Positions 2,319-48,691 of a stretch of DNA of 64,000 nt are shown piece by piece. A model generated the notes under the pieces. The model did no database searches, was not told where the DNA came from, and was given only the letters and a program-made list of their open reading frames with translations. Origin of the DNA: a virus. The translations under genes and the position numbers were made by a program. The number at the start of each line of letters is the position of its first letter. Positions within the stretch are counted from its first letter, which is position 1. The DNA is taken from IMG/VR virus record IMGVR_UViG_3300022821_000012, positions 36,211 to 100,210 of that record, one strand, 5' to 3'.

Positions 2319-2867
2319 TTAGTAACGATCCATTTCAACCCAACGGTTTGGGCGTAGTTGACACATAATGACAGTCCATTGATATAGGTCACGACCTTCT
2401 ACTACGGTTTCAAAATAGCGGTCGCACGTTTTTCCTTGGTATACAAATCTATTGCCACTGATTTTAGATAAGCCTTCTAAACCAGTTAAATCCTTTTCTT
2501 TATTTGAATCATCACAAACAAGTTCAGCCTTGCTACGGATTTGTTGTGGATATAACTCTTCAAGCATTAACTTTTTACCAGTTTCATATGCCACTGCACA
2601 CGCTTTGCCTTCATCTTTATGGAATACATAAGACCCAAGACCCTGATGCCAGTTGCCATCGACTTGTGCCTCGAATGAAACCATACACTTCTGCTTGTTT
2701 TCACGCCACGGAACAACGTTCTTTGTAATGTTACGAACGCTTTCAATAGTGCCTAGTTGCTTTGCATTAGTGGTTTCTTTTAAGACGCACTCGGCAGCTA
2801 CAGGTGTAGCAAACAAGACACTTGCAAGAATACTATACTTTAAGATTTTCGCCATTGGGAATATCAT
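2319..2867 (-). CDS. Secreted Cys-rich protein, 182 aa
   Basis: A signal peptide of about 25 residues with a TPVAA cleavage motif is followed by a mature domain with six cysteines that could form disulfides in the periplasm. The start may be at 2867 or at the second Met at 2855 (MAKILKYS); neither has a strong ribosome site. No family recognised. Confidence 0.7.
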   Translation of the reverse strand: MIFPMAKILKYSILASVLFATPVAAECVLKETTNAKQLGTIESVRNITKNVVPWRENKQKCMVSFEAQVDGNWHQGLGSYVFHKDEGKACAVAYETGKKLMLEELYPQQIRSKAELVCDDSNKEKDLTGLEGLSKISGNRFVYQGKTCDRYFETVVEGRDLYQWTVIMCQLRPNRWVEMDRY

Positions 2868-2913
2868 CCGTAAAATTGGTCCAAATTTGTGACTTCAACT
2901 CGCCTCTTTGATG

Positions 2914-3198
2914 TCATAGTTCAGTCTCTTTAAATAACTGATTGGTTAGGCGTCCGCTTTCACGTTCAACAAAATGTTCAAACTTAGCGATAGCAATAGT
3001 CGCCGCAATCTTTAACTGATCGTCGGTTGCTTGAAACGTATCATCATCCATGCCCAAATCATCGGCAGGAATAGCGAATGAAACCGTGCTGTCGCCTACT
3101 GGAAATTGAAAAGTGAATTCAAACTTCGGCATAGGGTGATACGCATAATTAATTAGCGGTAATAGTTCACTAAGGTAGTCTACATTTTTATCACTCAT
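2914..3198 (-). CDS. Hypothetical protein, 94 aa
   Basis: A small acidic soluble protein (MSDKNVDYLSELLPLINY). The middle reads as alternating beta strands (KFEFTFQFPVGDSTVSFAI), the end as helix. No family recognised. Confidence 0.65.
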   Translation of the reverse strand: MSDKNVDYLSELLPLINYAYHPMPKFEFTFQFPVGDSTVSFAIPADDLGMDDDTFQATDDQLKIAATIAIAKFEHFVERESGRLTNQLFKETEL

Positions 3199-3217
3199 GG
3201 TGTGTTTCCTTTAAAAG

Positions 3218-3529
3218 TTACGGGCATTGGGTTCTTAAATCCCAAATCAAATTTTTAGCAATCTTATCATATTCACGATCAGCGAGTGCCTTCTGTTGTG
3301 TATAGGTGCCGTTGATAGCCCCCATCAATCCACTAAGCATTCCACGTGTATGGTAGGTTGCAGATAAACGATCCCATTCGGTTGACATTTGCGTTTCAAG
3401 AAACTTGATTTGCGCTTCTTTATTTGCACAATCAATCTTCATATAACGAAGGTCATAAATATCCATACGATGGGTAGAAGAACATCCCGCAAGGGTTGCT
3501 ACTACTAGCAATGCTGCTGCGATCTTCAT
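3218..3529 (-). CDS. Small lipoprotein, 103 aa
   Basis: Starting at 3529 gives a clean lipoprotein signal, MKIAAALLVVATLAGCSS, with lipobox LAGC; the longer open frame to 3577 adds residues that hide it. The ATG overlaps the TGA of the upstream 42-aa membrane gene. The mature part is helical. Function unknown. Confidence 0.7.
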   Translation of the reverse strand: MKIAAALLVVATLAGCSSTHRMDIYDLRYMKIDCANKEAQIKFLETQMSTEWDRLSATYHTRGMLSGLMGAINGTYTQQKALADREYDKIAKNLIWDLRTQCP

Positions 3530-10959: not shown

Positions 10960-11415
10960 ATGTCAAATATTTATACTATATATAAAATCACCAATCAAAT
11001 CAACAACAAATCTTATATAGGATTTACATCATATTCACCGCAGCATAGATGGTCATCACACAAAGTAGCCGCAAATCGTGGGGGGAAATCACTGTTCCAA
11101 GCAGCTATTGTGAAGCATGGTCCTGAAAACTTCATTGTTGAAACCATCTACCAAAGCCTCGACGAAGATCATACTTTGAACACAATGGAACCTCACTTCA
11201 TCAATGAATACAATACATTCCATGGTGATGGATATAACAGCACGGCGGGTGGCGGAAGTAAACGAAAGGGGAAAAAAGCTGACCCTGAATTTGTAAAATT
11301 ACAGCAGCAACTAGGAAAACTAATATTTGCACATATGATACATAATGGTGCTATGCCTCATCCTGATGCGGAGTTATTAAACTTTTTACGAACCTACATA
11401 TATATAGGCAAGTAG
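10960..11415 (+). CDS. Free-standing GIY-YIG endonuclease
   Basis: A 151-aa protein with the GIY-YIG module: YTIYKITN, KSYIGFT, a catalytic Arg in HRWSSH, and Glu/Asn in the following helix. The C-terminal part is basic (SKRKGKK) and could bind DNA. It resembles Seg-type phage homing endonucleases. It is one of few plus-strand genes and stands alone, as expected for a mobile insert. Confidence 0.85.
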   Translation: MSNIYTIYKITNQINNKSYIGFTSYSPQHRWSSHKVAANRGGKSLFQAAIVKHGPENFIVETIYQSLDEDHTLNTMEPHFINEYNTFHGDGYNSTAGGGSKRKGKKADPEFVKLQQQLGKLIFAHMIHNGAMPHPDAELLNFLRTYIYIGK

Positions 11416-12477: not shown

Positions 12478-12690
12478 TTATTCATTATAGGTTTTGCCAT
12501 CCCATTCCCATTGGTTATAAGAGGTGGTAGAGGGATGCTTGTAGGATGTGCATCTGGACAGTAGGCTTGTCCCGGCAATGTCGGGATGGGAGCATCCAAT
12601 CCCACTCTCATATTTACATGTATTGCATCCATATTCATTAAATACAGGCTCAGTCAATGTATTCCAGAACTCTTCTTTTTCTTTATTCAT
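12478..12690 (-). CDS. FW-family small zinc-knuckle protein
   Basis: 70 aa from 12690: MNKEKEEFWNTL, CNTC, a second Cys-His group (CSHPD), and QWEWDGK. Closely similar to its upstream neighbour, so a tandem duplicate. Confidence 0.7.
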   Translation of the reverse strand: MNKEKEEFWNTLTEPVFNEYGCNTCKYESGIGCSHPDIAGTSLLSRCTSYKHPSTTSYNQWEWDGKTYNE

Positions 12691-12910
12691 ACTCATAATC
12701 GTGATAGGTTTCACCATCCCACGCCCATAGATTATTGTTAGTCATGGATGGATGAATCCATGAATTGCAAACATCATACCGTATATTATCGGGGTGCCGA
12801 CACTCCCCCTTCTTCGTGACATTTTCTTTATATTTGCAGGTTCCACATCCATAAGCCTTAAATACAGGATCGGTCAATGTATTCCAGAACTCTTCTTTTT
12901 CGCTATTCAT
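12683..12910 (-). CDS. FW-family small zinc-knuckle protein
   Basis: 75 aa from 12910: MNSEKEEFWNTLTDPVFKAY, CGTCKY, CRHPD, and LWAWDGE. Middle of a three-copy tandem set. Confidence 0.7.
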   Translation of the reverse strand: MNSEKEEFWNTLTDPVFKAYGCGTCKYKENVTKKGECRHPDNIRYDVCNSWIHPSMTNNNLWAWDGETYHDYEYE

Positions 12911-12911
12911 A

Positions 12912-13202
12912 TTAATACTCATCATCAGGCATAGTTTTACCATCCCATTCCCATGCATTGTCTTTATGCATTAGATCGTTCGGGGGCGTGGTTTGGCACA
13001 CCATACAGGGTTTGTAATCGTACGTCTGGTCATGGTCCGCCCCCCATCCTTTAGGATTACCATGCTCGGCGTATTTACAAGAGGCGCAAGTGTGCCTGTG
13101 AAATATAGGTTGACTCAATGCTTGCCAGAATTCTTCTTTATTCATTCGTTTGGCTTTTACAGTGGGTTCTGAGAGGGCCTTGAAAAATTGTTGTTTGTTC
13201 AT
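12912..13202 (-). CDS. FW-family protein with doubled N-terminus
   Basis: 96 aa. The motif occurs twice: MNKQQFFKALSEP and then MNKEEFWQALSQP, followed by CASCKY and AWEWDGK. The second Met could be an internal start. The doubling suggests unequal crossing-over between copies. Confidence 0.7.
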   Translation of the reverse strand: MNKQQFFKALSEPTVKAKRMNKEEFWQALSQPIFHRHTCASCKYAEHGNPKGWGADHDQTYDYKPCMVCQTTPPNDLMHKDNAWEWDGKTMPDDEY

Positions 13203-14458: not shown

Positions 14459-15478
14459 TTAGCTACGATGTAAGTCAAGTGTGCAACAATGAATCCCTCC
14501 ACCAAGTGTTCGTGCCATATCCATTGGCGTGTCAATAACCTCAATGCCGTGCGCTTCAAGTCGTTTTTTAATGTATGGTTGTCCTGATTCCATCAACACC
14601 AAACCCGGCTCAATAACCAATAAGTTCAATGCAATCCACTTAGACGCATACGGGTAGTCTTTGAAATATTGTGCCACAACTTCTTCTTCGGTAATGTAAA
14701 TCTTTTCCCAATCCTTAAAGACCTTCGGGCAGTTGCTTTCATTTACACGATTGGCATTAAGCATAACCAATCCTTCTTTAAGCGGACAAATAGTGCTATC
14801 GATATGAGCATAACTATATAGGTTATCAAGAATATGAACGGTCTTATCAGGTAGCATTTGCTGTAACCATTCGCCGCCACGATAGTTACCTGTCTCACTT
14901 ACAAGGTATAGTAGATCATCATTCACCCTGCATACGTTTGCTGCGTCGAAGATAGGATAGTCTTCGGTAAGTATCATCTTGTTATTGTCGTGGTCAAGTT
15001 TGAAATCATCATCGAATAATGCTGGTTTAGGTGCACTGAACCATACTGCCCCATCCTTTATTGCATCTCGTTTAATGTGTTCGTATCCTTGGAACTCATA
15101 CCAACGGCTTCTATACGCCATTGGTGTTTCAATGACACGGTTGCCGACTACTAGTAGAACGTCACGTGGACAATAGCCATACATACCGTCGGTTTCCCAA
15201 TAGTAGTTGTTATGTGTTTCACGGTAGTCAAGTTTCGCTGGGACTCGTGTTTTGATTCCATATTGCTCAAGACGAAGAACGATATCCATAAGGTTCTCGG
15301 TCGCCTTAGTTTTAACTTTCTTATCAAAGTTTCCTTGTGGCAACGATGTTTCTTTCCATTTAGTAGTGATGGATTGCATACTGAATAAAGGGTCTTCGGT
15401 AGGGAAACGGGCAAAGTTGGATACACCAACCACCACATCATGTAACTTATCCCATTCGTTATTGCTATTTACTATCAT
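14459..15478 (-). CDS. Amidinotransferase (arginine deiminase superfamily)
   Basis: 339 aa, close to the length of glycine amidinotransferases. The catalytic set is in place: FDAANVCR (Asp region), YAHIDSTICPL (His) and a C-terminal GGGIHCCTLDLHR with the nucleophilic Cys. Such enzymes move the amidino group from arginine to an amine. I start it at the ATG at 15478; an earlier TTG is possible. It may add a guanidino group to a sugar or small molecule made by this island. Confidence 0.85.
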   Translation of the reverse strand: MIVNSNNEWDKLHDVVVGVSNFARFPTEDPLFSMQSITTKWKETSLPQGNFDKKVKTKATENLMDIVLRLEQYGIKTRVPAKLDYRETHNNYYWETDGMYGYCPRDVLLVVGNRVIETPMAYRSRWYEFQGYEHIKRDAIKDGAVWFSAPKPALFDDDFKLDHDNNKMILTEDYPIFDAANVCRVNDDLLYLVSETGNYRGGEWLQQMLPDKTVHILDNLYSYAHIDSTICPLKEGLVMLNANRVNESNCPKVFKDWEKIYITEEEVVAQYFKDYPYASKWIALNLLVIEPGLVLMESGQPYIKKRLEAHGIEVIDTPMDMARTLGGGIHCCTLDLHRS

Positions 15479-15665
15479 CTTCAATCTCGGTTACCAACAA
15501 TCGCATCAGTTCTTCTTCTATATCTTTGCCCCACGCACTAATACTTCCATCCGAATATTCTACCTCTACGTGATGTCCATCATCGTAATATGATACTATA
15601 TATGGTTTTGGTTCTGGTGGGTCGGCGCAGAGTTCTTCCCAAAACAGTTCTTTATCTTTATTCAT
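15465..15665 (-). CDS. FW-family protein with diverged tail
   Basis: Opens with MNKDKELFWEELCADPPEP as in the family, but lacks the CxxC knuckle and ends in an acidic helix containing ISAWGKDIEEELMRLL. The N-terminal tag appears fused to another small domain. Confidence 0.55.
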   Translation of the reverse strand: MNKDKELFWEELCADPPEPKPYIVSYYDDGHHVEVEYSDGSISAWGKDIEEELMRLLVTEIEDDSK

Positions 15666-15897
15666 CTTTTCCATTCCATTCCCAATTATCTTTATATAAT
15701 GCTCGGGTGGCTCCACTGATTGGGTGTGAAATGCTAGCACAATCAGGGTCTAGCATACGACCATTTTCAGATTTGGTGTCACACACAACAGAGTAATTTC
15801 CCATACCCATATTCGCAAAATGATCAAGATGTTTACAGTTACGGCAGTTATGGTGTGTTGGTTCACGCAATGCTTTCCAAAACTTTTCTTTATTCAT
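15658..15897 (-). CDS. FW-family small zinc-knuckle protein
   Basis: 79 aa: MNKEKFWKALREP, CRNCKHLDH, three further Cys or His, NWEWNGKDE at the end. Stop and next ATG overlap. Confidence 0.7.
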   Translation of the reverse strand: MNKEKFWKALREPTHHNCRNCKHLDHFANMGMGNYSVVCDTKSENGRMLDPDCASISHPISGATRALYKDNWEWNGKDE

Positions 15898-15898
15898 T

Positions 15899-16405
15899 TT
15901 AAGTCGCTTTGGTCCATCCTGTCACCTGTAATGTATATCGGGGTTCAATCCCGATGTTTGCGGCAGAATGCTTATTATCGTTCTGCCAAACGACATAATC
16001 ACCAGCTTTCCAGTTAAGACATTCGCCATCAATCTCAAAGATGTGTCCCGGCTTTCGATCCTCTAAGAAGATCACTGCACGATTAATATTCTCGTTGTGC
16101 CATAACTCGTAAGCCTGTTTATATCGTGCGTACAGGTCTGCGTGTTCTGGTAGAATAACGCCTGTTTCCATCACATAATAACTTGTTCCAACATCATTCC
16201 AATGACGGAAATGTTCTTTGACTAGGTTATTCCAAGACGGTTGTTCCTTGCGGAAATCAGCCATCTTGCCTACATAGTATTTGTGGGTATAACCGTCTTT
16301 CTTCCATTGATTCAACAACTCAGGGTCATTGAATGCTTCTCGTTGATAATCTAAAAACTTATATTCATCGTCCCAAAACGGTGTCATCTTTTCTATTTTA
16401 TGCAT
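15899..16405 (-). CDS. 2OG-Fe(II) oxygenase-like protein
   Basis: 168 aa from 16405. The order HAD (HxD iron site, in LPEHADLY), a distal His in NDNKHSAANIG, and an Arg in EPRYTLQVTG matches the 2-oxoglutarate oxygenase double-stranded beta helix. It could hydroxylate a product of this island or a protein. Confidence 0.6.
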   Translation of the reverse strand: MHKIEKMTPFWDDEYKFLDYQREAFNDPELLNQWKKDGYTHKYYVGKMADFRKEQPSWNNLVKEHFRHWNDVGTSYYVMETGVILPEHADLYARYKQAYELWHNENINRAVIFLEDRKPGHIFEIDGECLNWKAGDYVVWQNDNKHSAANIGIEPRYTLQVTGWTKAT

Positions 16406-16634
16406 TTTTTCTATCCCATTCCCATAATCTTTTTGCTTTATACGTGTTAAAAGGTCTGCTACTTGTGTTTGCAACCGATGAGTAAATATAATCATTATGA
16501 ACATCGCACATTAATCCAGCCCGCAATGAACACGATGTGGTGCTAACCGTAGCTTCGTTAAAGAAACAGTTATCACACGTTCTTTTTGTTGGCTGGGTTA
16601 GCGCATTCCAAAACTCTTGTTTACTGTCATCCAT
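16398..16634 (-). CDS. FW-family small zinc-knuckle protein
   Basis: 78 aa: MDDSKQEFWNALTQP, CDNCFF, later paired Cys, and LWEWDRK. Overlaps both neighbours. Confidence 0.7.
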   Translation of the reverse strand: MDDSKQEFWNALTQPTKRTCDNCFFNEATVSTTSCSLRAGLMCDVHNDYIYSSVANTSSRPFNTYKAKRLWEWDRKNA

Positions 16635-17241
16635 TGATAGTTATATCTCGCAAATCAGGATAGTTGAATGGCGGCGGGGATTTGATATCACCATCATCCA
16701 ACATCCGCATACCTTTTATTGCCCATTCAGGACGCATATGATAATGATAACCAATATCAAATACATTTTGGTCAGCCCATTTATCATAGGTATGAATGTT
16801 ACGACCATCATATGCCATACGTTTTAAGGTAGCGTAGTCGTCAGCGTTATCTAATAGTATAGCACCACCTGCGCCGATTTGCAATGGTTTTCCGTGCCCA
16901 AAACTAAGGCATTGCTTTTCACGTGGACGGAACATTCCTTCTTCAAATAATCTTGCCGAATCGTATACACTTGGAATGACATCGTATTCGCCATCTTCTT
17001 CCCAATCAATATCCTTAAAGAAATAGTTCTTGTTAATCTTTTTTAACATCATCGGAATACTTAGATATGTTCGGGCTGGCAATGTGACATCCCACATTGT
17101 ATATTCGTGCCGTAAGCACAGTTCCAATGCGTGTGTGCAACAATCTGTTAACACCACATAAGGTGCGCCAGTATATTCCGACAGCATATCCTCAAAATCT
17201 AATAATGCGTCAAACGGGTTTTCATAATCTTCTATAATCAT
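16627..17241 (-). CDS. Mini DegT/DnrJ-like sugar aminotransferase
   Basis: 204 aa, about half the usual 370. It keeps YVVLTDCCTHALELCL (cofactor-phosphate region), DSARLF, and the PLP-lysine segment SFGHGKPLQIGAGGA. The C-terminal domain is missing. These enzymes aminate keto-sugars; the truncated form could be active as an oligomer or have another role. Confidence 0.75.
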   Translation of the reverse strand: MIIEDYENPFDALLDFEDMLSEYTGAPYVVLTDCCTHALELCLRHEYTMWDVTLPARTYLSIPMMLKKINKNYFFKDIDWEEDGEYDVIPSVYDSARLFEEGMFRPREKQCLSFGHGKPLQIGAGGAILLDNADDYATLKRMAYDGRNIHTYDKWADQNVFDIGYHYHMRPEWAIKGMRMLDDGDIKSPPPFNYPDLRDITING

Positions 17242-17462
17242 TCTCTTTCACCATCCCATTCCCATTGTTGTTTATAATGAATAAGTTCATATGTAGTGTG
17301 GTCCAATACATCTCTGTTATAGCATAGCCATTTGCCATTTCCCCAAAACGGGCTTTCATCAATACTGCATTTAACAGTAACATAATCGCCTTTAAACTGA
17401 CAGTTCATACAAGACTTTTCAGTTGGACCAGCCAATAACTTCCAGAACTTTTCCTTACTCAT
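17238..17462 (-). CDS. FW-family small zinc-knuckle protein
   Basis: 74 aa: MSKEKFWKLLAGP, CMNCQF, two more Cys, and QWEWDGERE. Sits between the aminotransferase and the SGNH-like gene with overlaps at both ends. Confidence 0.7.
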   Translation of the reverse strand: MSKEKFWKLLAGPTEKSCMNCQFKGDYVTVKCSIDESPFWGNGKWLCYNRDVLDHTTYELIHYKQQWEWDGERE

Positions 17463-18201
17463 TTAGAATCTCCATAAAATGTGGTTCCATAATGTCAGCA
17501 GCGGCAACATGTGCTTCTTCAAGAGGGTGTCCGTATTGCCCCTTTTCAAAGTTGTGTGCATTAGCCCAATATACAAATCCTGTGTCGCCATAATCGTGCG
17601 GAAACCATTTAAACTTATTCCAGTCAATGCTGTCGTATAGACTTCTACAAATAGATGGACCATTATTCTTTAATGTATTCCAATGTTTGAAATCGTTCCA
17701 TCGTTCAGCACAAGAAAACATATACGGGATGTTTCTATTATTCAAATATTCCTGTAGCAATAGGATTTGTGTAAGTGTGTTGTCAAGTTCATTCATACTA
17801 TCAAGCATACGATATTCAACTTCTGCCCACTTGTCGGTGCCGAAGTTTTTGATGCGTTGAACATACTCATCGCCAAAGCACGATGCTACCGTTTTATCAG
17901 ACAAGTTTAGGTGTGCGGGTGTTAGGGTATACCAAGGACTATTCTGCTCTTTAGTATCAAATGAACAAATGTAATCATAGCGTGAAAGATATGACCATTG
18001 AACTATTACCGCAACATTGTCGTCTATCGTTGATACCCTATCAATAATGCGTTTGGCGATATATCTGTTACCTGCGCCGGGATAGCCTTCGTTGATATAC
18101 TCAAATCCACGGCGTTCGGCAATATTTCCAGTCCACGTATTATCAGTATTTTGTAACTCTGCGCCTTGTATCAGGCTACATCCACCAGCTATTAGTTTCA
18201 T
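17455..18201 (-). CDS. SGNH-hydrolase-like protein
   Basis: 248 aa from 18201. GGCSLIQG at the start fits block I (Ser nucleophile), GYPGAGN block II/III, and the C-terminal HPLEEAHVAAA the catalytic Asp/His block (here E-x-x-H). Such enzymes remove or move acyl groups on sugars. It would fit glycan modification. Confidence 0.6.
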   Translation of the reverse strand: MKLIAGGCSLIQGAELQNTDNTWTGNIAERRGFEYINEGYPGAGNRYIAKRIIDRVSTIDDNVAVIVQWSYLSRYDYICSFDTKEQNSPWYTLTPAHLNLSDKTVASCFGDEYVQRIKNFGTDKWAEVEYRMLDSMNELDNTLTQILLLQEYLNNRNIPYMFSCAERWNDFKHWNTLKNNGPSICRSLYDSIDWNKFKWFPHDYGDTGFVYWANAHNFEKGQYGHPLEEAHVAAADIMEPHFMEILNE

Positions 18202-18395
18202 TCGCCATTCCATTCCCATTTATCAACGCTATTGTCAAGATGCAATCCACGTGAACAATACTTGTTTTCTGGCCAATGCGCCATGTCCAAATCTTGAATA
18301 AAGCATTCAAGACCATTCTTCTTAATACAGTTCGAACATGTTCGTTGATCATTTGGCGGGATTGTCAATGCTCGCCAAAACTCATCCTTATTCAT
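18198..18395 (-). CDS. FW-family small zinc-knuckle protein
   Basis: 65 aa: MNKDEFWRALTIPP, CSNCIKK, two further Cys, and KWEWNGE. It directly follows the C-half of ugd with an ATGA overlap. Confidence 0.7.
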   Translation of the reverse strand: MNKDEFWRALTIPPNDQRTCSNCIKKNGLECFIQDLDMAHWPENKYCSRGLHLDNSVDKWEWNGE

Positions 18396-18913
18396 CTAGT
18401 ATTTCCATACCAATATGTCTTATGTTGTGAACGTACTTGACGCCAAGGGTCAACAACCACAGAATCTTCTGCGCCTTCGTTAAACGTATCTTGCGGATGT
18501 GCCATTAGATATACAGCAGGTTCGTCAAGGATTACATCATATTGCACATCATCAATATATGATCCAACAAGAATAGAACTTGACCCATCTTCGTAATCCA
18601 CACCGGGCTTATAACTTTTGCCCATAATCACAACAGGTAGATTGTAACTAACTAGTTTGTCTGCCATATTCTTGGCTTGTTGTTCACGGGCATTCATTAC
18701 CGCATCAAACAAATCGTAGCCAAGATTTAGGTCTTTTGCCATCCAACGTAAAGCAATGTTGTCACGTGGGTGACAATTATGAATTACGATTCCAGTGTCA
18801 GCACACATATAAAATTGATCATCTTTATTTTCATGATTGGGTTCCACTTCTAAATTGTAAACATCACCATTGTATTCAGTTATTTCAATATTTGTAATTC
18901 GTTCAGTTGTCAT
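18392..18913 (-). CDS. ugd: UDP-glucose dehydrogenase C-half with C-intein
   Basis: 173 aa. Residues 1-46 are a split-intein C-fragment ending TGIVIHN, with the penultimate His and terminal Asn needed for cleavage. Residue 47 is Cys, followed by HPRDNIALRWM: this Cys is both the splicing +1 residue and the catalytic Cys of the dehydrogenase. The rest is the central helix and the NAD/UDP C-domain (GKSYKPGVDYEDGSSS). It must be joined to the N-half at 19781-20854 by protein trans-splicing to make an enzyme of about 381 aa. The ATG overlaps the stop of the endonuclease gene. Confidence 0.9.
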   Translation of the reverse strand: MTTERITNIEITEYNGDVYNLEVEPNHENKDDQFYMCADTGIVIHNCHPRDNIALRWMAKDLNLGYDLFDAVMNAREQQAKNMADKLVSYNLPVVIMGKSYKPGVDYEDGSSSILVGSYIDDVQYDVILDEPAVYLMAHPQDTFNEGAEDSVVVDPWRQVRSQHKTYWYGNTR

Positions 18914-19725
18914 ATTTTAATTCCTAAGTTTTCTAAATCTCGTTTAAATAATAATTTAATTGGATTATTTGGGTGTTGTTCTTTTAGTAGATCAAACTTG
19001 GTTGGTTCTTTGCTGTGCCAGTAATCAGATTTAACATCTATATAGCACTTCCATTCATTCACATAAAAATCAGGATAATAATTTCGTTCTTTACCATTTG
19101 CATCCACATAAGGGATACGTCCTATATGACAACTAAATGTCATATTGTTTCTATCTAACCATTTAATAAATGCTAATTCCCATGTTCCTTGAACTTTGTA
19201 CAATTCACCATTCGAATGGACGTAATCATGCCAAACACATTTTCCTGTTGTATTAGCGCCTATATATTTTCCGTCCTCCCATGCTTTTTTTGATCCTAAT
19301 GAATATTTCTTTCTTTCTTCTTTTGTCATTCGTTCTGAACGGGTTTTTCCTACCTTTTTTTGTGTTTCTGGATTTTTCATTGGGTTATTATCTCCAATCA
19401 TTCTTCCAGTTTTAGCACAAATATTTTTCATCATTATTGACATTTCCTGTCGTTTTTTTGGGTCACTCCACACCTTTTTTAATGCGTCTGACATCTTTTT
19501 TATTTTCTCCGGACGGTTGTTTAATATCGACCGCCAACATTTATTACAATAATCCTTGTCAAACAGATCAACCTTTGTCATCTTGGTGTAATGTGATAAA
19601 TCTCGTTCGTGTATTAGATCGCATTTGTCGCATTTCAATCGGATCATCTTTGTACTACAATAAACAGTCTTGTTTTTTTTCTTATCTATCCATGAATATT
19701 TTCGTCTAAATTCTTCTACTATCAT
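18910..19725 (-). CDS. Homing endonuclease in fractured ugd (Vsr/PD-(D/E)XK-like)
   Basis: 271 aa. A zinc region (CDKC, CNKC) is followed by NUMOD3-like repeats (NNPMKNPETQKKVGK, KKYSLGSKKAWEDGKY) that bind DNA, then a nuclease core: GTWELAFIKWLDRN, YYPDFYV and CYIDVKSDYW, the acid-x(n)-acid-x-Lys pattern of Vsr-like and PD-(D/E)XK enzymes. It lies exactly between the two split-intein halves of ugd, as in the fractured genes described from marine metagenomes. It has its own late promoter and is coupled by ATGA to the C-half. Confidence 0.85.
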   Translation of the reverse strand: MIVEEFRRKYSWIDKKKNKTVYCSTKMIRLKCDKCDLIHERDLSHYTKMTKVDLFDKDYCNKCWRSILNNRPEKIKKMSDALKKVWSDPKKRQEMSIMMKNICAKTGRMIGDNNPMKNPETQKKVGKTRSERMTKEERKKYSLGSKKAWEDGKYIGANTTGKCVWHDYVHSNGELYKVQGTWELAFIKWLDRNNMTFSCHIGRIPYVDANGKERNYYPDFYVNEWKCYIDVKSDYWHSKEPTKFDLLKEQHPNNPIKLLFKRDLENLGIKI

Positions 19726-19743
19726 TATGTATCTCCTATACTT

Positions 19744-19751
19744 TATTTATA
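19744..19751 (-). promoter_or_regulatory. Late promoter TATAAATA
   Basis: Exact motif between the N-half of ugd and the endonuclease gene; start expected near 19738. It would let the endonuclease and C-half be made late, apart from the N-half. Confidence 0.6.
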
Positions 19752-19780
19752 CAAAAATACATAACAAGTACCGTTATCAC

Positions 19781-20854
19781 CTATAAAATAAATAATTTAT
19801 CTGTTTCTTTGATGTCTTCTGCCTTTATAATAATTCGTTTTCTTTTTCGTTCTACTGGAATTAAATGATCTTTTGTAACTGATATTTTCTTTCCAGATTC
19901 GGTAGTAAAAGTATACAATGGGCCGCTATATTCTCGCATAGTAACATCGGCAATTTTCTTTTGGTCTTTCTTTGTTCCTGCCCAATTCATTGAATCTACG
20001 ATATAATATTCAGTGTCGTTAAATGTGTTATATAACTCGCTGATTTCAATATGTGCGTCATTTACATTAATTTTAAAGTCAGATTTAACACAAGCACCCC
20101 CATCGCCCATGCCAGCCTTCATATACATAGGTGACATAATACGGTGTGTTGAATGCGCAATGGCATCTGTAACTACATCAACATTGATATTGCCTTGCTT
20201 TTCAGCAACGTCTTGAATCATATTCACAAGACCGATTTTTGTAGAAATGAATGTATTGTAGAAAATCTTCACGCATTCCATTTCATCCCATGTTCCGACA
20301 ACATAACGTGGGTCATTATCCATAACGGTTTCATAGAAATCAATCAACTCTCGTGCTTCAGTTGTTTCATCGCCATCTTTAGTACCAATCATTACCATTT
20401 CTGGATTGACCATATCCCATCCAACTGTTCCCATAGCGATTAGGTATGGATTGTATACAAAGCGATTACGTGGAATCACATCAATAAGCTCACGGCGAAC
20501 TGTGCCGGGTAGCACGGTCGATACAAGGACCACCAGTGTCTGGCGATTACTATAACGATTAACTTCTTTCATCACATCTTTAACAATGGTGTAGTCAAAA
20601 TCTTTTGGTGGCAAATGCGCAGTTGGGTATCGACCATCATAAGATTCTTCGTGGGGTGTTGGAACTGCGATAAATAAAATATCAGGGCGGTTACTGTAGT
20701 CGTGGTGTATTAAATCTTTGATTGATTCCACACTAGTAACCAAATCTGACTTGAACCCTTGGATATCATAACCGGTAACAGTATGACCTTTTTTAGCAAT
20801 TTCTTCAGCGCACGGCAAACCAAGTTTACCAAGCCCTATAAACGATATTTTCAT
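19781..20854 (-). CDS. ugd: UDP-glucose dehydrogenase N-half with N-intein
   Basis: 357 aa. Residues 1-254 are the N-extein: Rossmann NAD site (SFIGLGKLGLPCAEE), FIAVPTP, VSTVLPGT, and the helix ending in AGMGDGGA. Residue 255 is the first intein residue (Cys), beginning CVKSDFKINVN. The 103-aa N-intein contains LYTFTTESGKKISVTKDH, the block B with Thr and His. It stops at DKLFIL where a contiguous intein would go on. The break is at the catalytic-Cys codon. Confidence 0.9.
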   Translation of the reverse strand: MKISFIGLGKLGLPCAEEIAKKGHTVTGYDIQGFKSDLVTSVESIKDLIHHDYSNRPDILFIAVPTPHEESYDGRYPTAHLPPKDFDYTIVKDVMKEVNRYSNRQTLVVLVSTVLPGTVRRELIDVIPRNRFVYNPYLIAMGTVGWDMVNPEMVMIGTKDGDETTEARELIDFYETVMDNDPRYVVGTWDEMECVKIFYNTFISTKIGLVNMIQDVAEKQGNINVDVVTDAIAHSTHRIMSPMYMKAGMGDGGACVKSDFKINVNDAHIEISELYNTFNDTEYYIVDSMNWAGTKKDQKKIADVTMREYSGPLYTFTTESGKKISVTKDHLIPVERKRKRIIIKAEDIKETDKLFIL

Positions 20855-20867
20855 ATTGGAGTGTCCT

Positions 20868-21932
20868 TTGTATGATGTTCTTAATTATAGCATTTCCATA
20901 GCTGAATTTCTATATAAAAATGGGTTTGGCATATATAAAAATGTATATTTTGAAGACCCCGGCACGGTTACCGATTGTTATTTAGACATTCAGGTGAGTC
21001 ATTCGGCGAATAGTGTAAAGTCATCCTTTATAAATATATTCGCCGCCAATGAACCAAACTTTTCATATGATAAAATACCACAACTGAGAACTGCGAGAGG
21101 TTCCAAGAAGAAACTAATCCTTATTAGTGATTACAACAATGACTATAAGCAAACATTTGAAGGGTGCGGGTCGTTCGAAACAGTTTATTTTTTCTTTCAA
21201 GGATATTTAGCATTACGGTGGTATAGAAACTATAGACATTATAAACCATTCGACACCTTTGAATATAAGTATAACAGTTCAAGTCGTATCATAGAAGGTA
21301 TGCGAGATTATCGTTTGTATCTATCAAGCATCCTGCCCGACCCACATACCAATCAAGTAAGCTGCTCAGATATATGTCCATTCAGCAACAAAACCATTGA
21401 CGAAATATTGGATAACCAATACTGCTTTTTAAACGAACATCAAAAGGCATCTGTGCGTAAAGCAAGCTTCCCATATCGGTATGATCACTTAGATAATCCT
21501 ATCCCAAATACAAGTTTTGAGATTGATTGGGTCACGCAATCTAAATCATTCCTTCATGTAGTAAACGAAACAGTTTTTTATGAGAAATTCAATCACTTAA
21601 CGGAAAAGATATTCAAACCCATCGCACTACAACGTCCATTCGTATTAACATCAACACCCGGTTCATTAGCTTATTTGAAACGATATGGCTTCCAGTCATT
21701 TGACAAATGGTGGGATGAAAGTTATGACCTTGAACTTAACCCACGCCGCAGACTTGATATGATCGCAGAAGTTGTAAAGTATGTCAACTCATTATCTATG
21801 GATGATCTACACACAATGTATCATGATATGAAACCTATCCTAGAGCATAATAACAATCTATTTTACGGAGAGTTCGAAGATAGTATCCTCCAAGAACTAA
21901 TAGTTAACTATCAACGGGCAGTCTATTCGTAA
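20868..21932 (+). CDS. Glycosyltransferase-like protein
   Basis: About 354 aa. The C-terminal third (NHLTEKIFKPIALQRPFVLT, then STPGSLAYLKRYGFQSF) matches the sugar-donor region of phage glycosyltransferases. I start it at the TTG at 20868 because GGAG lies 6 bases upstream; no ATG is in frame. It is divergent from ugd, which makes UDP-glucuronate, so a donor-transferase pairing is plausible. Confidence 0.65.
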   Translation: MYDVLNYSISIAEFLYKNGFGIYKNVYFEDPGTVTDCYLDIQVSHSANSVKSSFINIFAANEPNFSYDKIPQLRTARGSKKKLILISDYNNDYKQTFEGCGSFETVYFFFQGYLALRWYRNYRHYKPFDTFEYKYNSSSRIIEGMRDYRLYLSSILPDPHTNQVSCSDICPFSNKTIDEILDNQYCFLNEHQKASVRKASFPYRYDHLDNPIPNTSFEIDWVTQSKSFLHVVNETVFYEKFNHLTEKIFKPIALQRPFVLTSTPGSLAYLKRYGFQSFDKWWDESYDLELNPRRRLDMIAEVVKYVNSLSMDDLHTMYHDMKPILEHNNNLFYGEFEDSILQELIVNYQRAVYS

Positions 21933-22207
21933 TGTTTATATATGTAATAGGTGGCGTGGATGGACCACAAAAAATAGGGTTCAGCAATGATGTTGATACA
22001 AGGTTAGCTGCACTACAGACAGGTAATCCCACTAAACTAAAAATACATTATTATGCGGAAGTGCCAGAGAAACAAGTTCGCCTTATAGAATCAGAAATAC
22101 ACAAAGCAAACCGTCACACTAGGGTATCAGGTGAATGGTTTGATATCACACCAGATGAAGCCATTGCCGAAGTGCAATACGGTGTTATACGTTGGTGTGA
22201 TGATTAA
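21932..22207 (+). CDS. T5orf172/GIY-YIG-like small protein
   Basis: 91 aa: MFIYVIGGVDGPQKIGFSND, VDTRLAALQTGNPTKL and a GEWFDI end match the T5orf172 domain of the GIY-YIG superfamily. It overlaps the previous stop by 1 base. A nuclease or DNA-binding role is likely. Confidence 0.75.
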   Translation: MFIYVIGGVDGPQKIGFSNDVDTRLAALQTGNPTKLKIHYYAEVPEKQVRLIESEIHKANRHTRVSGEWFDITPDEAIAEVQYGVIRWCDD

Positions 22208-25936: not shown

Positions 25937-26110
25937 TCATTTCATTTTCGTGTAAGTCTTTTTATTCCATACCCATTCATTTAATCGGGTAGGTGAACAA
26001 GTTACGGGTTTTGGCATAAATCGTGATATACACGCACGTGAATAAAAGCAGTTATTACAACTCTTTTCAAATGATAGTCGCTTCCAAAACAGTTCTTTAT
26101 CTTTATTCAT
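25937..26110 (-). CDS. FW-family small zinc-knuckle protein
   Basis: 57 aa: MNKDKELFWKRL, CNNCFYSRAC, another Cys, and EWVWNKK. Confidence 0.65.
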   Translation of the reverse strand: MNKDKELFWKRLSFEKSCNNCFYSRACISRFMPKPVTCSPTRLNEWVWNKKTYTKMK

Positions 26111-26595
26111 TTGGTTACGATTTCCCATAGTTTTTGCCAGTCGCTGCTGTTATATCCCGGTTTATCATACTGTTGGTTATAGCCACCCCAAAAGTTTAGT
26201 CTACCCTTCTCGTTAACCTTACTAAACGTTCCAGCAACAAACCCTCCACCAATCAGCGCAAGATATTGTGTACTATCTGTTTTGATATCAGGATGGCTAT
26301 CTTTTCCACCAGCAAGCATATCTACTTCAACAAGTGTTACATTCTTTCTAGTCCACGTGTCATAATCACGCCGCCGTTGTTCAGCCCGCTGTTCATTTTC
26401 AATATTAATACGATCAATGTATGACGGAAGGTTAGGAAACCGTTTTATAATACTGTTAAAAGTATGATGATGTTCGGCTTCCCGTAGATTAGAATACCCA
26501 AACCATTTTTCAAGTTCAAGTCCGAACTCTTCGGTATTCCAATAATCACGGCGTATCGGTGCTTGCAATGCTTCCCAAAACTTTTCTTTATTCAT
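26107..26595 (-). CDS. FW N-terminal tag fused to a larger domain
   Basis: 162 aa from 26595: MNKEKFWEALQAP, then a domain without the CxxC knuckle that ends DKPGYNSSDWQKLWEIV. The middle has a basic helix (RAEQRRRDYDTWTRKN). It shows that the FW tag can stand in front of an unrelated domain. Confidence 0.65.
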   Translation of the reverse strand: MNKEKFWEALQAPIRRDYWNTEEFGLELEKWFGYSNLREAEHHHTFNSIIKRFPNLPSYIDRINIENEQRAEQRRRDYDTWTRKNVTLVEVDMLAGGKDSHPDIKTDSTQYLALIGGGFVAGTFSKVNEKGRLNFWGGYNQQYDKPGYNSSDWQKLWEIVTK

Positions 26596-26762
26596 TTGTC
26601 GCCGTTCCATTCCCAGTTATCTTCTTGATAACTAAGGGTTGCCATAATTTCTGGATCGTGTTCGTGACACGTCACACACCAATTCTCGTATTTGAACTTG
26701 CAATTAAAGCAACCTTTTTTAGTAGGCTCACTTAACGCATTGATAAACTCAGTCTTATTCAT
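26592..26762 (-). CDS. FW-family small zinc-knuckle protein
   Basis: 56 aa: MNKTEFINALSEPTKKGCFN, CKFKY, CVTCHEHDPE, and NWEWNGDK. Not FW but FI at the motif, as in the copy at 27321-27524, so these two form a subfamily. Confidence 0.65.
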   Translation of the reverse strand: MNKTEFINALSEPTKKGCFNCKFKYENWCVTCHEHDPEIMATLSYQEDNWEWNGDK

Positions 26763-28350: not shown

Positions 28351-28551
28351 TCATTTTCCATCCCGTTCCCATTGGCGTAACCATGGGTGTCCGTACTTAC
28401 ATGTCGTAGCGGAGTCTTTATCCATTAGTTCTGTGCAGATACACGAGTTATCACTGATGTAATATATACATATGATGTATTAAAATGCTTGCAGTTGCTA
28501 TAACCACGGCGATGGCAGACTTAACGCTTCCCAAAATGCATCCTTATTCAT
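28351..28551 (-). pseudogene. Decayed FW-family copy
   Basis: Starts MNKDAFWEALSLPSPWL and stops; other frames give GYSNCKHFNTSY and, at the end, QWERDGK. At least two frameshifts. Confidence 0.6.
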
Positions 28552-28754
28552 TCCAATAGCTCATATCTTCTTATCTTCCACATCTTACATTTCTCAGGAA
28601 CATAGTGATTTTGAAATATTTGGCTTTTCTCGTGACAAAACACTTGAAAATGATCTGGATTGTTATCATCAAGCGTTCGGTATATCTTTGCGAACCGACA
28701 GTCCTCGCAATCTTGATTACTTTTTAACGCTTCCCAGAACTCTTCTTTATCCAT
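28548..28754 (-). CDS. FW-family small zinc-knuckle protein
   Basis: 68 aa from 28754: MDKEEFWEALKSNQDCEDC, later FCHEKS, but the end is MWKIRRYELLE, not WEWDG. Confidence 0.65.
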   Translation of the reverse strand: MDKEEFWEALKSNQDCEDCRFAKIYRTLDDNNPDHFQVFCHEKSQIFQNHYVPEKCKMWKIRRYELLE

Positions 28755-29103
28755 TGCGATGGATAACAGGCGTCCAATGGTCAGGAACACTTAACTGCAA
28801 CTCTTTCACACGTTGTTCCATATGGTCATAAAATGAATCTATCTCTCCTCCCCATTTACCACGAAGATTAGATACACAATCCAATACAAAGTTCCATTGC
28901 TGTGTTTTGTAGCCATTAATCATCTTGGCGTGAAACTCTTTCCAATGGTCCATTTGTGGTAAATCACCAAGACTAATATTTTCTGCACTGATTACTGACC
29001 ACGCCGGGAGTTCTTCGCCTTCTACCATAAACGTGTCAAGTTCAAGCACGATATACTTGTCGCCAAACATTTCGCTTACATCTTCACCGTATACTACTTT
29101 CAT
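28747..29103 (-). CDS. Hypothetical protein, 118 aa
   Basis: MKVVYGEDVSEMFGDKYIVL, acidic and Trp-rich. Coupled to the upstream membrane gene. No family recognised. Confidence 0.65.
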   Translation of the reverse strand: MKVVYGEDVSEMFGDKYIVLELDTFMVEGEELPAWSVISAENISLGDLPQMDHWKEFHAKMINGYKTQQWNFVLDCVSNLRGKWGGEIDSFYDHMEQRVKELQLSVPDHWTPVIHRNG

Positions 29104-44030: not shown

Positions 44031-44276
44031 TCAATGTTTATTATTCCATTGCCATTTAGGCAGGATAACATTCGATGTGTCATTATTACTCCTGATGTGC
44101 CTATTCATTGTACACGCTTCACAAATATCACCAATATGGTCGTAATCCTCTGAAGTGCATTCCGAACCATCTTCATTCAGTTTAACTGATTTTATATCAT
44201 ATCGCCATTTACAGTTTTTACATGATTTCTCAGACGGTTCACGTAACGTTTTCCAAAACTTTTCTTTATCCGTCAT
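44031..44276 (-). CDS. FW-family small zinc-knuckle protein
   Basis: 81 aa from 44276: MTDKEKFWKTLREP, CKNCKWRYD, CEAC, and KWQWNNKH. Confidence 0.7.
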   Translation of the reverse strand: MTDKEKFWKTLREPSEKSCKNCKWRYDIKSVKLNEDGSECTSEDYDHIGDICEACTMNRHIRSNNDTSNVILPKWQWNNKH

Positions 44277-44427
44277 TTCCATCCCATTCCCAAAACACTT
44301 CACCATACTCCCTCATACTTGCCGACGAAGTGCACGATTTGATTTTGCAATACACTGATTGATTGTATCCTCGACTGTTATTAGCACAGTTATGACTTAA
44401 TGACTTCCAAAACTTTTCTTTATTCAT
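44266..44427 (-). CDS. FW-family small zinc-knuckle protein
   Basis: 53 aa: MNKEKFWKSLSHNCANN, two more Cys, and FWEWDGNDG. Overlaps the next copy. Confidence 0.65.
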   Translation of the reverse strand: MNKEKFWKSLSHNCANNSRGYNQSVYCKIKSCTSSASMREYGEVFWEWDGNDG

Positions 44428-45487: not shown

Positions 45488-45751
45488 TCAAGATATTAGT
45501 TTCCACCAGAACTGTTCTTTTGGATCGGTGATTACGTCTTCCATAGTAACACGTTCGCCATACAACCGCCATTCGGTGTCATTTGCACGTACAACAGCTG
45601 GTCCATCTGTTCTATGTAGTTTATCATTCAAGTACCAACGTTTGGTGCCATTTGCATATTCGACGGCAGGGCCATCTGTTCTATGTAGTTTATCATTCAA
45701 ATACCAAGATTTGGTGCCATCTTCATAAGTATGACATATCGGTTCAGTCAT
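45488..45751 (-). CDS. DGPA-repeat protein, array copy 1
   Basis: 87 aa from 45751: MTEPICHTYEDGTKSWYLND, repeats ending HRTDGPAVEYANG, and the C-cap YGERVTMEDVITDPKEQFWW. Overlaps the next copy by ATGA. Confidence 0.75.
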   Translation of the reverse strand: MTEPICHTYEDGTKSWYLNDKLHRTDGPAVEYANGTKRWYLNDKLHRTDGPAVVRANDTEWRLYGERVTMEDVITDPKEQFWWKLIS

Positions 45752-46083
45752 GTTTTCATCTTCCACCAGAACAGTTCTTTTGGATCGGTGATTACGTCTT
45801 CCATAGTAACACGTTCGCCATTCAAATACCAATACTTGTTGCCATTAGCAAACTCAATGGCAGGTCCATCTGTTCTATGACGTTTGCCATTCTTGAACCA
45901 TTGTTTGTCGCCATTTGTAAATTCAATAGCAGGGCCATCTGTTCGATGATATTCACCATTCAAGTACCAAGCTTTGGTGCCATTTGATTCTTCAATAGCA
46001 GGTCCATCTGTTCTATGAAGTTTATCATTAAAGTACCAAGCTTTGGTGCCATTTGCATCGGTATGCATTCCATTTTTATTCAT
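45748..46083 (-). CDS. DGPA-repeat protein, array copy 2
   Basis: 111 aa from 46083: MNKNGMHTDANGTKAWYFND, four repeats and the same C-cap. The start is chosen by its overlap with the neighbour's stop. Confidence 0.75.
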   Translation of the reverse strand: MNKNGMHTDANGTKAWYFNDKLHRTDGPAIEESNGTKAWYLNGEYHRTDGPAIEFTNGDKQWFKNGKRHRTDGPAIEFANGNKYWYLNGERVTMEDVITDPKELFWWKMKT

Positions 46084-46478
46084 GATCTTAACTTCCACCA
46101 GAACAGTTCTTTTGGATCGGTGATTACGTCTTCCATAGTAACACGTTCGCCATTCAACCGCCATTCGGTGTTGTACGTGCAAATGACAGCAGGTCCATCT
46201 GTTCTATGACGTTTGCCATATTGATACCAATACATGTTGCCATTTACATTTTCGACAGCAGGTCCATCTTCTCTATGACGTTTGCCATGTAGATACCAAT
46301 ACATGTTGCCATATGATTCGATTGCTGGTCCATCTGTTCTATGACGTAAGCCATGTAGATACCAAGATTTGCTACCATTTGCATATTCAACAGCAGGTCC
46401 ATCTTCTCTGTGAAGTTTATCATTCGTATACCAACGTTTGGTGCCATCTTCATAAGTATGACATATCGGTTCAGTCAT
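46080..46478 (-). CDS. DGPA-repeat protein, array copy 3
   Basis: 132 aa from 46478: MTEPICHTYEDGTKRWYTND, then repeats such as MYWYLHGKRHREDGPAVENV, and the C-cap LNGERVTMEDVITDPKELFW. Confidence 0.75.
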   Translation of the reverse strand: MTEPICHTYEDGTKRWYTNDKLHREDGPAVEYANGSKSWYLHGLRHRTDGPAIESYGNMYWYLHGKRHREDGPAVENVNGNMYWYQYGKRHRTDGPAVICTYNTEWRLNGERVTMEDVITDPKELFWWKLRS

Positions 46479-46876
46479 GTTTTCATCTTCCACCAGAACA
46501 GTTCTTTTGGATCGGTGATTACGTCTTCCATAGTAACACGTTCGCCATTCAACCGCCATTCGGTGTCATTTGCACGTACAACGGCAGGTCCATCTGTTCT
46601 ATGTAGTTTATCATTCAAATACCATTCTTTGGTGCCATTTGTATATTCAATGGCGGGTCCGTCATCCCTATGAACTTCGCCATTCTTAAACCACCACTTG
46701 CTACCATTTGATTCTTCAATGGCTGGTCCGTCTTCCCTATGCGATTCACCATTGAATAACCAATACTTGTCGCCATTTGCATATTCAACAGCTGGTCCAT
46801 CTGTTCTATGTAGTTTGCCATGTAGATACCAATACTTGTCGCCATTTGCATAAGTATGACATATCGGTTCAGTCAT
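46475..46876 (-). CDS. DGPA-repeat protein, array copy 4
   Basis: 133 aa from 46876: MTEPICHTYANGDKYWYLHG, five repeats and the C-cap. First in the array behind the promoter at 46923-46951. Confidence 0.75.
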   Translation of the reverse strand: MTEPICHTYANGDKYWYLHGKLHRTDGPAVEYANGDKYWLFNGESHREDGPAIEESNGSKWWFKNGEVHRDDGPAIEYTNGTKEWYLNDKLHRTDGPAVVRANDTEWRLNGERVTMEDVITDPKELFWWKMKT

Positions 46877-46922
46877 GTTTTCATCTTCCACCACATTTTA
46901 CACTCAATGTTATTGTACGTTC

Positions 46923-46951
46923 ATTATGCTATATGGTATACATTGTGTCAA
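46923..46951 (-). promoter_or_regulatory. sigma70-type promoter (TTGACA-17-CATAAT)
   Basis: -35 at 46951-46946, -10 at 46928-46923. It faces left into the repeat-protein array and is back to back with a plus-strand promoter 13 bp away. Confidence 0.6.
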
Positions 46952-46964
46952 GCAATCTTTTTAC

Positions 46965-47401
46965 TTGACTATGGATGAAAACGTGTTATACTGGTAGTGA
47001 TACGTTTGATTTGAAAACGATTCTGTAGGCATCAGTCCATTCTAACACATATATGTTTTATGTCAAGGTAAAAGATTGCTTGACAGTATATGAAAACGTG
47101 TTATACTGGTAGTGATACGCCGTTTTTTTATTATTACTACGCAGGCATCAGTCCATTGTAACACACATAGAAACTTTGTCAAGCGTTTATTTCACGGTGA
47201 TAGAATGATTATACGTCAGGCATCAAGCCCATTGTATCACATATATGGCAAGGGTTGACAGCATTGAGTATATGTGTTATAATACCACTGTTTTTATTAT
47301 TGGTGGGTCGGGTATCACCACCATTATAACATGTTTTTATGCGTTATTATTACTATTAATCCATACGAAAGTCATTGTAACACATATACGCTTTATGTCA
47401 A
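46965..47401. promoter_or_regulatory. Cluster of divergent promoters
   Basis: No convincing gene here. Plus-strand promoters: TTGACT at 46965 with TATACT at 46987; TTGACA at 47080 with TATACT at 47102; TTGACA at 47255 with TATAAT at 47278. Minus-strand promoters: -35 at 47066-47061 with -10 at 47044-47039; 47182-47177 with 47160-47155; 47401-47396 with 47379-47374; and a weaker one with -10 at 47236-47231. Spacers are 16-17 bp. Minus starts share GGACTGATGCC or GGGCTTGATGCC just downstream; plus starts share GGTAGTGATACG. Confidence 0.7.
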
Positions 47402-48423: not shown

Positions 48424-48429
48424 AATAAG

Positions 48430-48457
48430 ATTATACGCAAAACAACAATATTGTCAA
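48430..48457 (-). promoter_or_regulatory. sigma70-type promoter (TTGACA-16-TATAAT)
   Basis: -35 at 48457-48452, -10 at 48435-48430, 7 bases before the UV endonuclease ATG. Confidence 0.65.
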
Positions 48458-48460
48458 GTG

Positions 48461-48691
48461 TTATTCTACGAATCGTTTATATCTCCAAAGGCGTTTTTCA
48501 TCACTGTCTGCTGCCCAGCACCGCCGTTTCTTTCGAACTCCTGCTGTCGGGTGGTTACAGTTATCCCTAGCATTTGTATAGCGTATATTGGGATTATTAT
48601 GAAATGCGAAATGCTTACAGTTAAGACAGTTTTTTCTTATGTCGGGTGGCATACGTAAACTATCCCAAAACGATTGTTTATCGTCATTCAT
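48461..48691 (-). CDS. FW-family small zinc-knuckle protein
   Basis: 76 aa: MNDDKQSFWDSLRMPPD, CLNCKHF, CNHP, and an altered LWRYKRFVE end. Confidence 0.65.
   Translation of the reverse strand: MNDDKQSFWDSLRMPPDIRKNCLNCKHFAFHNNPNIRYTNARDNCNHPTAGVRKKRRCWAADSDEKRLWRYKRFVE

Follow-up and report, generated by a model that had tools for sequence, protein, structure and literature searches.

We have analyzed a window of 64,000 nucleotides, part of a 100,210-base virus record (IMGVR_UViG_3300022821_000012), in which the gene coding for UDP-glucose dehydrogenase (ugd), on the minus strand, is interrupted at the codon of its catalytic cysteine. In our estimate the probability is about 85% that this gene has been fractured by a mobile split intein, that its halves are trans-spliced to a single enzyme and that the nuclease encoded between them homes as a unit with the intein parts, a control similar to that of I-TevI being the best fit. 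This reading is drawn from sequence comparison.

The N-half and the C-half would be made as two polypeptides, whose intein parts would fold together. Splicing in trans between GGA and Cys would then give one UDP-glucose dehydrogenase of 381 amino acids, with the catalytic Cys acting as the +1 residue of the splicing reaction. If a co-infecting phage has an uninterrupted ugd, the nuclease would cut this gene around its conserved Cys codon, and intein-N, nuclease and intein-C would be copied into the break as a single unit during repair. The nuclease may also repress itself by binding to a copy of the homing site beside its own late-type promoter, and a hairpin may hide its ribosome-binding site in the read-through messenger RNA.

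The gene is found in two frames, an N-half (19781-20854) and a C-half (18392-18913), with the nuclease gene between them (Table 1). Cys255 of the N-half opens the intein, and the junctions read GDGGA-Cys...HN-Cys-HPRD: The predicted spliced length is 254 + 127 = 381 amino acids. These frames and coordinates, the intein parts of 103 and 46 amino acids and the length of the product reproduce those of the original prediction, made from this DNA alone. The stop codon of the nuclease overlaps the ATG of the C-half by 4 nt (ATGA) in the window. The same overlap is found in 10 of the 12 loci tabulated; it is 35 nt in L091, and L084 has a 3-nt gap with no overlap.

Table 1. Features of the fractured ugd gene and related elements in the window.
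Feature	Position	Strand	Basis
Best sigma70-type promoter match of the region, ahead of the N-half (10/12, TG before -10)	20884..20912	-	
ugd N-extein, 254 aa, ends GDGGA ahead of the catalytic Cys	20093..20854	-	Open reading frames and profile matches
Intein N-part, 103 aa, Cys1, block B TKDH	19784..20092	-	TIGR01445 (8.3e-9) and alignment
Homing-site-like stretch, 14/20 against the insertion site in the phage's own ugd, putative operator	19762..19781	-	Function inferred
TATAAATA, T4-late-promoter-like box ahead of the nuclease gene	19744..19751	-	Function inferred
Predicted RNA hairpin in which the ribosome-binding site of the nuclease gene and the beginning of its start codon are paired	19724..19765	-	-13.2 kcal/mol, z -2.1; function inferred
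Homing-type endonuclease of 271 aa, with a Cys4 cluster (32, 35, 60, 63) close to the N-terminus and a C-terminal T7-endonuclease-I-like PD-(D/E)XK domain (E183, P218-D219, D230-x-K232)	18910..19725	-	
Intein C-part, 46 aa, ends HN	18776..18913	-	TIGR01443 and alignment
ugd C-extein, 127 aa, begins Cys-HPRD (splicing +1 and enzyme Cys)	18395..18775	-	Open reading frame and profile matches
Open reading frames with MNKEKFWEALxxP-like stretch	12683-12958, 12912-13202, 15465-15740, 15658-15897, 16398-16634, 17238-17462, 18198-18395, 26107-26610, 28548-28790, 44031-44306	-	

The N-half corresponds to a nucleoside diphosphate sugar dehydrogenase up to residue ~265 (TIGR03026, E 5.6e-36; UDP-glucose dehydrogenase family phrog_9148, E 2.5e-71); its TIGR03026 score lies under the cut-off because the gene is split. 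In the C-half the match to phrog_9148 (E 9e-22) begins at residue 46. The NAD domain, the central domain and a catalytic Cys within a GGxCxPxD motif are all present, and the UDP-binding C-domain PF03720 is not among the Pfam matches of the window C-half. In intact relatives (L002, for example), the residue corresponding to the +1 Cys is that of the GDGGACHPRD motif. We take this residue to be the nucleophile of the enzyme, as is general for UDP-glucose dehydrogenases. An assembly error, with an intact ugd in better reads, does not agree with three other contigs (L081-L083), which carry all five segments with 100% protein identity. The layout is identical in relatives whose nucleases are 45-57% identical to that of the window.

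The intein parts, which lie on separate frames, have the features of a split intein: Cys1, a block B TxxH, a penultimate His, a final Asn and a +1 nucleophile. The N-part is well above the cut-off of TIGR01445 (36.3 bits, cut-off 24.5), and the C-part reaches that of TIGR01443 (E 0.014, 15.7 bits, cut-off 15.6). Cys1, the T and H of block B, which reads TKDH in the window as originally reported, and the closing H-N are invariant in the 15 intein parts aligned, nine of which were located via extein or nuclease, without a pattern requiring HN followed by Cys. Cys+1 is found in the window and in its relatives, the latter having been parsed with Cys+1 required. When the last 90 of the 103 amino acids of intein-N are compared with PDB by phmmer, seven rows are obtained; gp41-1 and NrdJ-1 are not among them, and the best ones are MJ0781 (4.2e-5), which we take to be the KlbA intein, and PI-PkoII (0.0011).

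The invariance of these residues bears on whether the two halves could simply assemble, with the intein parts as docking domains and no splicing at all. Phage enzymes which work as two polypeptides do exist, such as the split NrdA of Aeh1 (PMC2988022). We consider such an assembly quite improbable here: All 15 aligned sequences keep the splicing residues, and in an unspliced enzyme the catalytic Cys would remain behind the intein-C segment.

Two partial open reading frames could also be read as a broken ugd, a decaying gene with an inserted nuclease, yet distant relatives have conserved the protein sequence of both halves. In all five pairs compared, pairs without nuclease included, nonsynonymous differences (pN) are far under synonymous ones (pS), for exteins and intein parts alike. 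We therefore regard a merely broken gene as extremely unlikely.

A striking case is that of L249 and L255, in which the gene is split and the nuclease is gone. The gap between their halves is 16 and 21 bases long; by eye it reads LGIKL-stop, with the stop overlapping the ATG of the C-half, and LGIKL-stop is the C-terminus of the nuclease in L005, L061, L086, L092 and L099. The gap contains AGGAA, a likely ribosome-binding site. The intein parts have pN values of 0.23/0.10, compared with pS values of 0.83/0.89; the latter are saturated, which counts against taking this difference at face value. Since pN is lower than pS, the halves seem to be still joined in these two contigs, with no nuclease to profit from it.

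Comparison of related loci indicates that the whole element has been transferred between different ugd genes. In L005 and L061 the unit is identical at 1298 of 1305 bp, while the exteins average ~76% (58-94% in 50-bp bins). The bins adjoining its edges reach 90 and 92%, values also found in single distant bins (92 and 94%). The contrast is similar for L099 and L102 (1188 of 1297 bp in the unit, ~72% outside) and for L042 and L093 (992 of 1318 bp, against ~55% outside, excluding bins beyond the end of L093). At the protein level, L042 and L093 share 53/47% of their extein residues, 78/91% in the intein parts and 74% in the nuclease. L042 has exteins which are nearest to those of L005, L061 and L086 (78-80% for the N-extein), but its intein is nearest to that of L093, and its intein-N is only 41% identical to those of L005 and L086. 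These contrasts imply that intein-N, nuclease and intein-C move whole between ugd backgrounds; the nuclease would be the driver of this transfer. We have also observed that L061 and L106, from two phages which are almost the same (1299 of 1300 bases in the element and 98-100% in nearly all other bins), differ at 8 of 50 bases immediately to the right of the element, which resembles a co-conversion tract.

Uninterrupted alleles are frequent among the relatives listed. The best 80 relatives listed for the N-extein include 74 which run directly from N- to C-extein (some end later with the contig) and five which are fractured with a nuclease (L005, L006, L042, L060 and L061); the contig of L020 ends at the site. 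The best 80 loci listed for the nuclease profile comprise 28 IMG/VR contigs with a fractured ugd (a few clipped by contig ends), L110 and 51 distant loci (25-37% identity). A profile of the intein parts, which detects the positive control L111, gives no match near L110 or the 51 distant loci at E up to 0.1. The 28 fractured contigs are too diverse for a single tight lineage: Between L084 and the window, extein identity is only 43/36%.

The same three-part layout is found at the same Cys codon in a second ugd lineage, with exteins ~28% identical to those of the window. It is represented by three contigs, L226, L228 (with the same proteins) and L230, whose nuclease (233-235 amino acids) is of the same family as that of the window. 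In L227 only the last third of the nuclease is retained, and L229 contains a contiguous intein with LAGLIDADG domains. A pattern consisting of an intein C-end followed by Cys-His-Pro-Arg-Asp is found in 38 viral stretches: 28 with this nuclease, six with another insert, two split without nuclease (L249 and L255), one contiguous (L268, a single frame of 576 amino acids) and one clipped by the contig end (L254). The version with Lys gives five viral stretches. The one of the six other inserts which we have read, L241, matches the homing endonuclease family phrog_314 (5.6e-12); a Pfam scan of this insert gives no nuclease match. From its motifs we take it to be of the GIY-YIG class. In all, the gene is split without a full nuclease in three viral contigs (L249, L255 and L227), and the intein is contiguous in two (L268 and L229).

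We have also scanned cellular genomes with a pattern requiring Lys (PKD), which covers sites with Lys and not those with Arg, and 46 of the 63 matches are contiguous inteins at the same codon, Halobacteria included; 40 of these 46 are 453-490 amino acids long. Identity as ugd was assigned by motif only, and some of them (GPGVGGHC...CIPKD) resemble other nucleotide-sugar dehydrogenases. The remaining matches are five which are not ugd-like and 12 without an upstream junction in frame, nine of them at the end of a stretch and three (L184, L193 and L216) with a stop codon. In L193 and L216 (L184 is doubtful and may not be ugd) this stop is 162-200 codons upstream of the intein C-end, and such sites may represent cellular ugd inteins which are split or broken.

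A tree of 64 splicing domains (145 columns, midpoint rooting, moderate support) places the 15 viral split inteins and L268 in one clade, with support 0.964. L268 nests within it, beside L084 (0.754; 0.918 together with the window and L091). Because of this position, the contiguous form of L268 suggests a split intein which has been fused back into one chain. A structure model of L268, with the halves as partial rows, was not used: The ugd part is largely good, but most of the intein has a predicted confidence (pLDDT) under 55, because the aligner set intein-N rows against the C-extein. Contiguous, other-nuclease and nuclease-free states at one codon indicate that the intein site is old and that what is new is the fracture with its nuclease. 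In L086 (~2406-3470) and L087, which is the same, the N-half holds a second, contiguous intein of 355 amino acids between FYN and T, so that two splicing events, one in cis and one in trans, would be required for the product.

The original prediction described the nuclease as Vsr/PD-(D/E)XK-like. The second part of this description has been maintained: Cys32, Cys35, Cys60, E183, P218-D219, D230 and K232 are invariant in the 11 members aligned, and the nine members which form the main group also have Cys63. The motif formed by P218-D219 and D230-x-K232 (11/11) is PD-(D/E)XK and does not agree with EDxHD. By sequence and motif (PD...DxK) the nuclease is similar to T7 endonuclease I, which a profile search against PDB chains finds at 1.4e-7, with PD and (D/E)xK aligned; the score with the corresponding Pfam family (PF05367, 25.5 bits) is under its cut-off of 29.1. 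No Vsr match is found in Pfam at E up to 1 for the window nuclease and four relatives, and the likeness to Vsr is at most one of fold class. In the predicted structure (pLDDT 82), residues 160-271 align with TnsA (Z 9.5, 2.5 A, 107 residues); I-Bth0305I (Z 7.0, 3.0 A, 80 residues) and Vsr (Z 6.3, 3.1 A, 90 residues) follow, in VIA-align comparisons where a Z below 8 may reflect merely a common arrangement. Foldseek finds nothing in PDB for this model at E up to 0.001. The NUMOD3-like repeats previously proposed have not been confirmed: This domain is not listed for the window nuclease, and appears only in the relative L228, below the cut-off (E 0.037).

T7 endonuclease I is a junction resolvase, and the closeness of the nuclease domain to it raises the question of a passenger, an enzyme such as a resolvase which does not target the ugd site. 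The genomic context makes this unlikely. Of the 29 relatives at least 43% identical among the matches listed, 28 are found in a fractured ugd and the other, L110, directly after ugd, and the unit shows transfer of the homing type. In L110 (265-1477), where the ugd is intact and belongs to the second lineage, this relative ends like the C-terminus of ugd (RDWEEMKGRAV, compared with KDWLNLKGRAV), which looks like an entry at the 3' end of the gene.

The region from the stop codon of the N-half to the start of the nuclease gene contains a stretch similar to the ugd insertion site. To evaluate it we have used a position weight matrix built from 54 intact ugd sites, with p values from 1000 dinucleotide shuffles, where a p of 0.000 means none of 1000. 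This test and the comparison along ugd pool nine families, omitting L061 (its element is almost identical to that of L005); the comparison with each phage's own site takes ten. Over the range -12 to +9, p values for the nine families go from <0.001 to 0.052; those of L005 in the three ranges used are 0.052, 0.047 and 0.002. When 1010 positions of 58 intact ugd genes are compared, starts -19 to -14 are the six highest for the pooled families, -18 being the best at 4.3 standard deviations above the mean. Matches to the phage's own site amount to 13-15 of 20 bases in seven of ten families (the mean over all positions is ~10); no ugd position is higher in six of these seven, with 2-15 equal, the site counted, and two are higher in L042. 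In the window this stretch ends 10 bases ahead of the box TATAAATA, without overlapping it.

The box begins 26 bases upstream of the nuclease start codon, and may serve as a late promoter of this gene. Six of the nine copies of TATAAATA in the window are within 80 bases ahead of an open reading frame on the same strand (from a mechanical list), compared with one of nine in reverse orientation. The exact box is found ahead of the nuclease in two of ten families, and GATAAATA or CATAAATA in four more. The predicted hairpin pairs the ribosome-binding site or the start codon of the nuclease in several families, with z values from -3.8 to +1.2.

Several results weigh against a control of this kind. 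L228 and L241 show no site signal with the matrix (p 0.386 and 0.335). Taken by family, the insertion site is the top ugd position only in L091, L084, L042 and L093; it ranks high in the window, L086 and L099, and starts -18 to -14 do not rank high in L005 and L092. Start -12 alone ranks between 4th and 509th in single families, and other places in ugd outscore the site in the window and L099. The match to the own site does not stand out in L005, L061 and L092 (10-11 of 20), nor in L228, L241, L249 and L255. This test took the best of 13 start positions, in families which are related and not independent. An exact box is limited to the two families mentioned and L084 has no clear one, while the z value of the hairpin is -2 or lower in only three of ten families and positive in another three.

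The stretch might also be a relic of the entry of the nuclease into the intein, a copied left half-site which does not act as an operator. The match is confined to the left half of the site and a few bases beyond the Cys codon, as expected for a relic. A relic should decay, however, and the stretch is recognizable across families whose nucleases are 42-57% identical, in noncoding DNA which has otherwise diverged, and mostly just before the late-like box. We regard a relic as possible, although somewhat doubtful.

The original prediction also proposed two separately controlled messenger RNAs. These are possible, with a sigma70-like match before the N-half and the late-like box before the nuclease and the C-half, but sigma70-type matches in the region are at the level expected by chance (13 found, 12.8 expected), and no terminator-like site is found between the halves: The only one (18759-18776) is at the start of the C-extein. 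Read-through is therefore equally possible. We tentatively suggest, from sequence only, a wider scheme in which a nuclease related to T7 endonuclease I would have independently evolved a double control of the I-TevI type, autorepression and hairpin. Its autoregulation would also set the timing and amount of the spliced enzyme, because the C-half is on the same transcript, with stop and start overlapping. In this scheme the gene would stay split after loss of the nuclease, with at least one refusion (L268).

Fractured genes with two halves, each with an intein part, and a nuclease gene between them were reportedly described by Dassa et al. in 2009 from metagenomes. The arrangement in the window is the same, but its host gene is ugd, its nuclease is T7-endonuclease-I-like with a DxK motif, and one codon is found with the nuclease lost, with another nuclease and with a contiguous intein. 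The nucleases of the fractured genes described so far are cited as EDxHD/Vsr (PMC12350094). A halobacterial intein, "udp", in UDP-glucose 6-dehydrogenase has been published (PMC4071816).

The M. jannaschii UDP-glucose dehydrogenase presumably contains a contiguous intein as well. Contiguous cellular inteins share the Cys codon, whereas the viral ones analyzed here form a separate clade. The novelty initially suggested for a ugd example must be restricted accordingly: A contiguous intein at this codon is widespread in bacterial and archaeal nucleotide-sugar dehydrogenases, while a fractured ugd was not found in the open-licence literature searched. The fractured ugd is of the same kind as the known fractured genes, with a host gene which is new as far as our literature search reached, another class of nuclease and, at one codon, an unusually complete range of states.

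The catalytic domain resembles that of T7 endonuclease I (PDB 3cae, 1m0d), and the window nuclease differs from it in ~180 additional N-terminal residues, with the Cys4 cluster and helices. I-TevI, according to PMC2988022, has a copy of its homing site at a late promoter, with a 15/20 operator match, and a hairpin which hides the ribosome-binding site. This enzyme, of the GIY-YIG type, resides in a group I intron; its repression has been demonstrated and its operator overlaps the promoter. Here an unrelated nuclease is found in a split intein, and the putative copy, known from sequence alone, precedes the late-like box by 10 bases.

A few other features of the window should be mentioned. Ten of its proteins were scanned, giving a class Ia ribonucleotide reductase subunit, PAAR and others, and no firm class for the phage. 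Two open reading frames on the plus strand, 10960-11415 and 21932-22207, begin with YTIYKITN...YIGFTS and FIYVIGG...KIGFS, which by eye we take to be GIY-YIG-like starts. Neighbouring open reading frames in 45488-49533 contain common repeats, such as HRTDGPA and YWYLNGE, and form a multi-copy cluster of repeat proteins. Short open reading frames with a MNKEKFWEALxxP-like stretch, in most cases followed by CxxC, are dispersed on the minus strand (Table 1), one of them directly after the ugd C-half.

In summary, a large part of the life history of an intein can be followed at a single codon, where the gene is uninterrupted, has a contiguous intein, is split with either nuclease or without any, and has perhaps been fused again. 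Such a variety of states makes the origin and persistence of split inteins testable. Natural split inteins with Cys+1 at the active site of an enzyme should also be useful for protein ligation. If the homing-site copy ahead of this unrelated nuclease is indeed an operator, autorepression would be a convergent rule for phage homing nucleases.

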